64,000 bases of DNA from Thermaerobacter subterraneus DSM 13965. GTDB taxonomy: Bacteria; Bacillota; Sulfobacillia; Thermaerobacterales; Thermaerobacteraceae. The stretch covers positions 1,479,890 to 1,543,889 of the forward strand of contig NZ_JH976535.1 of NCBI RefSeq assembly GCF_000183545.2. The letters run 5' to 3'. Position numbers and translations under genes: made by a program. Within the stretch, counting starts at the first letter, position 1. Every line of letters starts with the position of its first letter. Under the pieces are notes generated by a model, which was not told where the DNA came from, made no database searches, and was given only the letters and a program-made list of their open reading frames with translations. This document shows, in pieces, positions 52,839 to 56,061 of this stretch.

Positions 52839-53573
52839 CTACTCCATCTTGCGGATCTCCCGGCGCAGGCGGTTGATGATCCGTTTCTCCAGCCGGGAGA
52901 TGTAGGACTGGGAGATCCCCAGATGGTCGGCCACCTGCTTCTGGGTGCGCTCGATGCCGTCCACCAGGCCGAACCGCAGTTCCATGATCAGCCGCTCCCG
53001 CGGGGTGAGCCGCGCCAGGGCGCGGTGGAGCAGGTGCCGGTCCACCTTGGCCTCCAGGTCGCGGTAGATCACGTCCCCGTCGGTGGCGGGGATCACGTCG
53101 GAAAGCAGCAGTTCGTTGCCTTCCCAGTCCACGTTCAGCGGTTCGTCCAGGGACACCTCGTAGCGGGTCCGGCTGGTGCGGCGCAGGTGCATGAGGATCT
53201 CGTTCTCGATGCACTTCGATGCATAAGTGGCCAGCTTGATCCGCTTGGAGGGATCAAAGGTGTTCACGGCCTTGATCAGGCCGATGGTGCCGATGGACAC
53301 CAGATCCTCGATGGGAATACCCGTGTTGTCGAACTTGCGGGCGATGTAGACCACCAGGCGCAGGTTGCGCTCGATCAGGGTGTGGCGAACCGCCGGATCG
53401 TCCTCGTCCAGGCGGTCCAGCAACAGTTCTTCCTCGTCGGCCGTCAGCGGCGGCGGCAGGGCCTGGCTGCCGCCGATGTAGTGCACGGGCAGCCACGCCG
53501 CACCGCTGCGCAACAGCCAGCGCAGGATGGCCAGCCGCACGGACCACTTCAACCGGAGCCACTGATGCCGCAT
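52839..53573 (-). CDS. sigE: Sporulation sigma factor SigE precursor (early mother cell)
   Basis: A 244-aa pro-sigma-E. The N-terminal pro-sequence ([20 protein letters not shown]) is amphipathic and membrane-binding, followed by the conserved [15 protein letters not shown]. Cleavage by SpoIIGA takes place near this YIGGS (residues 32-36). Regions 2-4 follow: [57 protein letters not shown] and [20 protein letters not shown]. It lies 28 nt after spoIIGA, the conserved spoIIG operon. The ribosome binding site is weak, which suggests coupling to spoIIGA. Confidence 0.96.
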
Positions 53574-53601: not shown

Positions 53602-54813
53602 CTAGGACACCCGCGCCGCCGCCTGCCGGCCGGCGGGCGGGGCCTCCAGCAACGCGATGGGCAGAAGGGCCACATAATGCTGATCCCCGGTGAAGCGGCC
53701 GGGGAAGACGGCCACCACCGCCGGTCCCAGCGGGCGCCACCGGCCCGGCGGGGGCTCCACGGAGTGATCCGCCGCCGCTGGCGCCGCCGTCGTCCCGCCG
53801 CCACCGCCCGGCTCGCCGGGCGTTCCCGCCGCCGGGTCGGTGGTGGCGGCCGCGGCCCAATCCCGCTCGGGCTCCACGGGTGTCCCGGCGGCGAGCCGGC
53901 TCGCCGCCGGTCCTGCCAGGGCCGGCTCCCCCGCGGGCGGCCGCGGCGCAGGCGTCCCGTCCGGGGATGGGGCCGGTGCTGCCGGCAGCCCGGTGCCGGC
54001 GCCCCGTTCCCGGCGCTGCCGGTCTTCGTCTCCGCCCGGCACGGCCAGCCAGAGGGCGTCGGGGCGGAACCCGGCCAGAAAGCCCCGCTCCCGGCCGATG
54101 GAGGCAAAGGGCACGATGCGCAGCCGCTCCGCCCAGCCCGCACCGGCGGCCGCCCGGGCCCAGGCGGCGATGTCGTCCCCGGCCGCCACCGCCTGCCGCA
54201 GGACCGGGGGCAGCAGGGGCGCCACGGCCTGTTCTTCCACCACCACCACCGGCAGGCCCGTCAGAGGGTCCCGCAGCTGGTTGCCCGTGTCCACCAGGGC
54301 GGGCAGGTCCAGCCAGCGCCCTTCGCAGGCCACCCGCAGGGTGACGTACAGCGGTCCCGGCAGGGACCGCCGGCGCCAGGCCTGCCAGAAGAACCGGCCG
54401 GCCGCCACGGCGGCCCCTACCGCCGGCACCAGGGCCAGGGCGGGCGACACCCGGGGAACCGTCCCCGGCCCGTCGCCGCCCGCCGCCAGCGAGAGCACGG
54501 CCAGGGCGCCTCCGGCCACGAAGCACGCCAGGCCGTAGAACCAGGCGGCCAGGGCCAGCAGGCGCCGGGGCGTAACGGGCCAGAAGGCCAGCAGCAGCAT
54601 CAGGACCGAGGCCAGCAGCACCGCGGGCAGGCTGCGCCAGGGACCGGGGGGCAGCAGGGTCACGGCACAGGCGAAGGCCGTCCCCCAGGCCGTGGCCAGC
54701 GCGAGGCGCCCGCGGCTGGTGCGGGCCTGGGTGGCCTGGGCCGTGGCGGCCAGGAGGGCGTAGTCGACCACCGCGTTGACCAGGACGAACAGGTCCAGGT
54801 AGACGTACGGCAC
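53602..54813 (-). CDS. spoIIGA: Sporulation sigma-E factor processing peptidase SpoIIGA
   Basis: Membrane aspartic protease that matures pro-sigma-E. The N-terminal half has five hydrophobic segments from [20 protein letters not shown]. The C-terminal half holds the protease motif [18 protein letters not shown] with catalytic Asp175. [20 protein letters not shown], a further family block, follows. About 100 Pro/Gly/Ala-rich residues interrupt the protease domain before [21 protein letters not shown] chose GTG 54813 since the family begins MYVYLD-like. A long-spacing promoter with a Spo0A box lies upstream. Confidence 0.93.
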
Positions 54814-54916: not shown

Positions 54917-54945
54917 GACCGCCGGCAGCCCCGCTGCCGGCGGTC
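54917..54945 (-). terminator. 13-bp perfect hairpin between ftsZ and spoIIGA
   Basis: GACCGCCGGCAGC (54917-54929) and its exact complement (54933-54945) enclose a 3-nt loop. It lies 55 nt after the ftsZ stop and directly downstream of the spoIIGA -10, so it could end ftsZ transcripts and also fold at the start of spoIIGA mRNA. Confidence 0.65.
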
Positions 54946-54947
54946 TG

Positions 54948-54981
54948 ATTATACGCCCCGTGGACTGGGAAACATGTCGAG
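54948..54981 (-). promoter_or_regulatory. Spo0A-type long-spacing promoter of spoIIGA-sigE
   Basis: The minus strand has a consensus -10 TATAAT (54948-54953). TCGACA (54975-54980), a 5-of-6 match to TTGACA, lies 21 bp further upstream. Over that -35 lies TGTCGAG (54975-54981, plus strand), 6 of 7 to the Spo0A box TGTCGAA. The Bacillus spoIIG promoter has the same odd design: 22-bp spacer and 0A box on the -35. Confidence 0.68.
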
Positions 54982-54999: not shown

Positions 55000-56061
55000 T
55001 CAGCGGGCCGGCCGCGGCCGGCGGCGCAGGAAGTGGGGGATGTCCAGGTCGTCCCCGGTGAAGGGCTTGATGGGCAGGTCGTCCAGTTCGGGCCCGGGCG
55101 TTGCGGGTTTGGGGTCGAACCCCGTCGCGATGACCGTCACCCGGATCTCGTCCTCCAGGTTCTCGTCGATCACCGCGCCGAAGATGATGTTGGCGTCGGG
55201 ATCGGCCGCCTGGGCGATGATCTCCGCGGCCTCGTTGACCTCGTACAGGCCCAGGTCGGTGCCGCCGGTGATGCTCAGCAGCACGCCCTTGGCGCCCTCG
55301 ATGGACGCCTCCAGGAGGGGGCTGGAGATGGCCGCCCGGGCCGCGTCCACGGCCCGGGTCTCGCCCCGCCCCACGCCGATCCCCATCAGGGCGGAGCCCG
55401 TGTTCATCATGATGGTGCGGACGTCGGCGAAGTCCAGGTTGATGAGCCCCGGCACCGCGATCAGGTCCGAGATGCCCTGCACGCCCTGGCGGAGCACGTC
55501 GTCGGCCACCCGGAAGGCCTGGAGGATGGAGGTCTTCTTGTCGACCACCTGCAGGAGGCGGTCGTTGGGGATGGTGATCAGGGTGTCCACCTTGGCCTTG
55601 AGGTTGTTGATCCCCATCTCCGCCTGGGCCGCCCGCTTGCGCCCCTCGAAGGAGAAGGGCCGCGTGACCACGCCCACCGTCAAGGCGCCGACCTCCGTGG
55701 CGATCTCCGCGATGACGGGAGAAGCGCCGGTGCCCGTGCCGCCGCCCATGCCGGCCGTGATGAAGACCATGTCGGCGCCCTTGAGGCGCTCCTTGATCTC
55801 CTCGCGGCTCTCTTCCGCCGCCTTCTGGCCGATCTCCGGATCGGCACCGGCACCCAGGCCGCGGGTGACCTGGCGGCCGATCTGGATCTTCTCCGAGGCC
55901 AGGGATGCGGAAAGGGCCTGGGCGTCGGTGTTCACCGCCAGGAACTCCACGCCCCGCAGGCCCGCTTCGATCATGCGGTTGACCGCGTTGTTGCCCCCAC
56001 CCCCGACCCCCACCACCTTGATCACGGCAAAGGGCTGGTTTTCCATATCAAACTCAAGCAC
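55000..56061 (-). CDS. ftsZ: Cell division GTPase FtsZ
   Basis: Bacterial tubulin that forms the Z ring. The 353-aa protein has [20 protein letters not shown], the GTP signature GGGTGTG (106-112, [19 protein letters not shown]), and the T7 synergy loop [11 protein letters not shown]. The C-terminal peptide reads [20 protein letters not shown] and then an Arg-rich tail (RRRPRPAR). I chose GTG 56061, which has GGGGAGG 8 nt upstream; ATG 56046 is less well served. ftsA, which usually precedes ftsZ, is absent: ftsQ lies directly upstream. Confidence 0.97.

Follow-up and report, generated by a model that had tools for sequence, protein, structure and literature searches.

The spoIIGA-sigE operon in the 64,000-nucleotide stretch of Thermaerobacter subterraneus DNA analysed here (the window, whose positions are used throughout) is probably under two-stage control, from a Spo0A/sigma-A promoter (P_A) and then from a self-reinforcing sigma-E promoter (P_E), which lies between P_A and the spoIIGA start, about 95 bp downstream of P_A. 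Judged from its sequence, P_A belongs with high confidence to the wide-spaced spoIIG/spoIIE type of Spo0A/sigma-A promoter, and we hold with moderate confidence that P_E functions as a sigma-E promoter, with less confidence in the copy in the window than in the phylum overall. If the model is true, sigma-E would, in many spore formers, feed back positively on the operon that encodes it, giving a self-sustaining commitment of the mother cell and a concrete difference from B. subtilis, the basis of the textbook circuit. The features of the region are as follows.

55000-56046, minus: ftsZ (TIGR00065, 456 bits), the upstream gene, with its stop codon at 55000-55002
54991-54985, minus: upstream 0A half-box of P_A, GCGGCCA, its CA precisely 10 bp upstream of that in the main box
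54981-54975, minus: 0A box of P_A, CTCGACA (complement TGTCGAG), read from the sequence and overlapping the -35-like hexamer
54980-54975, minus: -35-like hexamer of P_A, TCGACA, 5/6 identical to TTGACA
54974-54954, minus: 21-bp spacer of P_A, including a conserved TTTC tract at 54972-54969
54953-54948, minus: -10 element of P_A, TATAAT, read from the sequence and also conserved in relatives
54946-54916, minus: hairpin with a perfect 14-bp stem (from folding), directly after the P_A -10, where the spoIIGA transcript is predicted to start
54878-54871, minus: candidate P_E -35, GTTCTACC, in which CTA replaces ATA (from the genus alignment and matrix score)
54856-54848, minus: candidate P_E -10, CATAGGCAT, separated by 16 nt from the -35 core (from a matrix trained on spoIVA and spoIIIAA)
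53602-54813, minus: spoIIGA, pro-sigma-E protease (PF03419, 194 bits; TIGR02854, 144.7 bits, below the cut-off of 209.55)
52839-53573, minus: sigE, mother-cell sigma factor (from its translation and its position after spoIIGA)

We take the product of the last gene to be SigE, by its place behind spoIIGA and the known features of SigE. The ATG that opens the longest spoIIGA frame (54849) falls within the candidate sigma-E -10, and homology indicates that the GTG at 54813-54811 is the likely start.

Read 5' to 3' on the minus strand, the full P_A site is GCGGCCACATCTCGACATGTTTCCCAGTCCACGGGGCGTATAATCAGACC; it is located upstream of spoIIGA-sigE, with its -35 beginning 20 nt past the ftsZ stop. 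The first-pass annotation had described a TATAAT, a 21-bp spacer and a TTGACA-like -35 overlapped by a near-perfect 0A box at 54948-54981, and all of these elements are found there, on the minus strand. The box (TGTCGAG) is identical to the 0A core TGTCGAA at 6/7 positions and retains G2, C4 and G5, which are among the bases contacted by Spo0A (PMC3485338). The second half-site carries CCA at 54987-54985, 10 bp up, with a weak match to the full 7-bp box. In pattern searches, exact YCGACA-N20-22-TATAAT has a single match in the 2.89-Mb genome, and the looser YGACA-N20-22-TATAAT matches once in each of the other genus members (G001, G002 and G003), each time at spoIIGA, and twice in the window genome (G000), with 0 matches to the reversed control pattern in these four genomes. 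The second match in the window genome (C1:1896334-1896366, L148) precedes the gene for a large exported protein that looks S-layer-like and not like a sporulation gene; no sporulation link was seen, and we treat this match as chance.

The genome encodes Spo0A (TIGR02875, 390 bits) with its DNA-binding domain (PF08769, 150 bits). Alignment to the solved Spo0A domains 1fc3 and 1lq1 demonstrates that the recognition helix is the same except at one residue (A to P), and that the segment SRVERAIRHAIEVAW is intact. With its -35 and -10 elements 21 bp apart, P_A would be a sigma-A promoter too widely spaced for good unaided use. Repositioning of RNA polymerase by Spo0A~P is known from B. subtilis alone, at spoIIG (reportedly by Kumar and Moran), and by analogy we propose that Spo0A~P bound to the tandem 0A half-boxes of P_A, the lower of them over the -35, would reposition the polymerase to start in the predivisional cell near 54941, the start point predicted from the sequence.

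The layout of P_A recurs widely upstream of SpoIIGA genes. We sampled these regions at 49 loci of the class besides the window and at 110 broad phylum loci, letting a simple score choose the best pair of TTGACA-like and TATAAT-like elements per locus, with all spacings between 12 and 28 allowed. A 21/22-bp spacing was chosen in 129 of the 159 loci outside the window (about 15 expected), comprising 38/49 in the class (2.5 expected in shuffles; 5 in reversed sequence) and 91/110 in the phylum sample (12.7 expected in shuffles; 12 in reversed sequence), and it was likewise chosen in 56/61 named Bacillaceae SpoIIGA loci. Columns outside the pair selection are conserved as well, with a seven-sequence group (ph22) left out of the ranges. 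Of the relatives, 78-86% have C at position -6 in the upstream half-box and 45-75% have A at -5; this CA lies precisely 10 bp upstream of its counterpart in the box, and the window has both bases. The spacer conserves T at +9 and +10 and then a pyrimidine at +11, which the window also carries. The GACA of the 0A box itself is invariant or nearly so across all groups.

Closer to the window, 4/4 genus members and the sister genus (G004) all retain the 0A box, TATAATCAGACCG and the spacer of 21 bp, so that the search for the layout before spoIIGA proposed in the first-pass annotation finds it in each of them, and the loss of the box from close relatives that it had named as a refutation is not seen. 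Its suggestion of deep conservation holds because the class, phylum and Bacillaceae loci share the layout at the frequencies given above; its description of the site as a copy of the Bacillus layout does not, since the comparison supports a phylum-wide design, found across most of the spore formers sampled. The Spo0A checkpoint at spoIIG (and at spoIIE) would thus have one promoter geometry in most of the sampled spore-forming phylum, and its odd 21/22-bp spacing would reflect a functional constraint that has been conserved, rather than a peculiarity of Bacillus. A TTTYnC tract is also conserved between the 0A box and the -10, at columns +8 to +13 for spoIIG and at +11 and +13 for spoIIE, and may contact a shifted sigma region 4 or Spo0A.

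The spoIIE promoter, in the same genomes and in C. difficile (PMC13395437), resembles P_A in having YGACA and a 21/22-bp spacer. Among the 31 class members, this wide-spaced layout is present before spoIIE in 29 (21 bp in 19 and 22 bp in 10). Unlike spoIIG, spoIIE carries in 15/30 loci an inverted TGTCG box, located at -32/-33, and has no sigma-E motif, the sigma-E matrix described below finding 0/31 sites in the spoIIE regions even at score 8.

The resemblance to Bacillus spoIIG that the first-pass annotation had drawn stands for the layout but not for all of its details. The B. spizizenii spoIIG site (L088) is CTCAACATTAATTGACAGACTTTCCCACAGAGCTTGCTTTATACT, with a 22-bp spacer and another CGACA some 50 bp upstream. 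The B. subtilis group shares with the window a sigma-A promoter before spoIIGA-sigE, a GACA box over the -35, a wide spacer, the CA half-box 10 bp up and the TTTC tract. In contrast, the TCGACA of the window corresponds to TTGACA in B. spizizenii, a weaker 0A core and a better -35, and the B. spizizenii spacer is 22 bp against 21 bp. The window has no counterpart of the distal CGACA site, whose frequency in the class is not above chance. Bacillaceae spoIIG also has no sigma-E-type promoter, whereas the window has the candidate P_E.

The sigma-E-type motif just downstream of P_A had escaped the first-pass annotation. Its general form is a -35 ATA, 15-17 bp and a -10 CATA, and in the window it reads CTA-N16-CATAGGCAT, of which the CATA core and the 16-nt gap agree with a sigma-E promoter (gap 15-17). 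Leaders in the class, from the TATAAT to the start codon, are rich in GGCATA and CATAGG and contain ATA/CATA pairs with a gap of 16-17 nt; the sigma-E genes spoIVA and spoIIIAA of the same genomes have ATA-N15/16-CATA upstream. We trained a sigma-E matrix solely on 26 spoIVA/spoIIIAA sites and then applied it to the spoIIGA leaders with a threshold score of 12. At this threshold, a P_E-type site is present at 15/49 loci of the class (0.1 expected in shuffles) and at 55/110 of the phylum sample (2.1 expected in shuffles), the latter covering about 29 families, and at 0/60 Bacillaceae loci (0.5 expected); about half of the loci are without a P_E above threshold. In fixed 110-nt intervals at the same score, the phylum sample gave 57 sense against 7/110 antisense sites, with 1/108 in an upstream control.

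Within the genus, GTTCTACC-N-GGCATAG(G/A)CATG is retained in 4/4 members, and the alignment shows a gap constant at 16 while the flanking DNA gains or loses tens of bases. The motif is not kept in the sister genus. Matrix scores are 10.6 for G002 (whose copy has the same sequence as that of the window), 12.4 for G001 and 8.7 for G003, compared with 24.5 for the genus spoIVA promoter; the genus copy is weaker because its -35 reads CTA, where many class and phylum loci have ATA. Genome-wide, CATA-N16/17-CATA is only mildly enriched (22 against 13), so the case for P_E rests on the matrix and on the position in the leader.

In the proposed second stage, processed sigma-E would transcribe its own operon from P_E in the mother cell. 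P_E would then be a second switch, apparently undescribed, that is widespread in the phylum and missing from Bacillus relatives. We lean towards the view that in much of Bacillota spoIIGA-sigE carries a Spo0A~P/sigma-A trigger and a self-amplifying sigma-E promoter in series, the loop being ancestral and lost in Bacillaceae; if this is so, that loss is why the B. subtilis model has no sigE self-loop. The self-activation proposed for P_E has precedents in B. subtilis: of the four compartment-specific sigma factors, it is reported for sigG, sigK and the spoIIA (sigF) operon, whose promoters are recognised by the sigma factor that each encodes. The literature searched, which covered few subscription papers, contained no report of such a loop for sigE.

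Published work on C. difficile bears on both promoters. A start with GTGACA/TATAAT is mapped upstream of spoIIGA, and sigE expression is down 240-fold in a spo0A mutant (PMC3789822); the spoIIGA region is bound by Spo0A, weakly (PMC3485338). As described there, this promoter is like that of the window in its GACA box, its TATAAT and the Spo0A-dependent expression of sigE that is predicted for the window. Unlike the proposed P_E, however, no sigma-E start is reported for spoIIGA, the sigma-A start being the only one given (PMC3789829, PMC3789822), and a sigE reporter is mother-cell-preferential yet persists in a sigE mutant (PMC3789829). We regard the C. difficile data as neutral to mildly contrary to the sigma-E loop.

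These data, with the weakness of the window copy (10.6) and the ability of B. subtilis relatives to manage without P_E (0/60), suit an alternative in which the Spo0A/sigma-A promoter alone works, the CATA motif being some leader element or a relic, with no sigma-E feedback. We consider this rather unlikely, given a strand-specific pairing of -35 and -10 like that of spoIVA and spoIIIAA at 55/110 phylum loci in about 29 families, and the conservation of P_E in the genus. The motif might instead be a promoter of sigma-K or of a forespore sigma factor, as a CATA -10 is common to sigma-E and sigma-K and the -10 of a C. difficile sigma-K promoter is CATATAAT (PMC3789822). This is clearly unlikely: the -35 is an ATA like those of spoIVA and spoIIIAA and not AC, the phylum sites are without the GG of sigma-F -10 elements, and it would make little sense for the sigma-E protease operon to be transcribed late, by sigma-K or in the forespore. 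For P_A, an ordinary weak sigma-A promoter or chance match with an incidental 0A box is already disfavoured and hardly credible, for although matches at 6/7 positions of a 7-bp core are common on their own, the spacing and the unselected columns are conserved phylum-wide and the site is unique in the genome.

The remaining alternative concerns the hairpin at 54946-54916, which the first-pass annotation had correctly placed just downstream of the site. Its very stable stem (z -3.7 in context) could make it the ftsZ terminator, with spoIIGA transcribed mainly by read-through from ftsZ. However, the hairpin has no U-run and is located after the -10, and both a G004 hairpin with a T-rich tail and a separate G003 hairpin precede the promoter, making a terminator very unlikely. 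Under the preferred two-promoter reading, a transcript from 54941 would retain about 9-10 pairs of the stem, which may contribute to the stability of the leader. Among the relatives the hairpin is confined to the genus, where G003 has one paired change (A-U to G-C); the idea that promoters of this kind generally have a hairpin at +1 found no support among the class relatives examined outside the genus, and no match to known RNA families was found.

Several minor observations concern the neighbouring genes and the regulator. The translation of SigE has Q at what is presumably the position distinguishing recognition by sigma-E from that by sigma-K. Replacing the glutamine there with arginine reportedly allows sigma-E to transcribe genes of sigma-K (PMC3789822). 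The genes after sigE are sigG (TIGR02850) and spoIIR (PF09551), and a terminator-like hairpin, AAAAGCCCCGCAGC...GCTGCGGGGCTTTTGC (52356-52322, minus), lies between a small ORF after sigE and sigG. Upstream of sigG is GAATA-N18-CATACT (52129-52101, minus), which fits the sigma-G promoter type, so that sigG seems to own a forespore promoter. Upstream of spo0A itself (L063, at about 93000 on contig C2 of the window genome), tandem TGTCGG/TCGACA boxes are followed by a conserved AGGAGTT, an arrangement similar to an autoregulated spo0A promoter of the sigma-H type.
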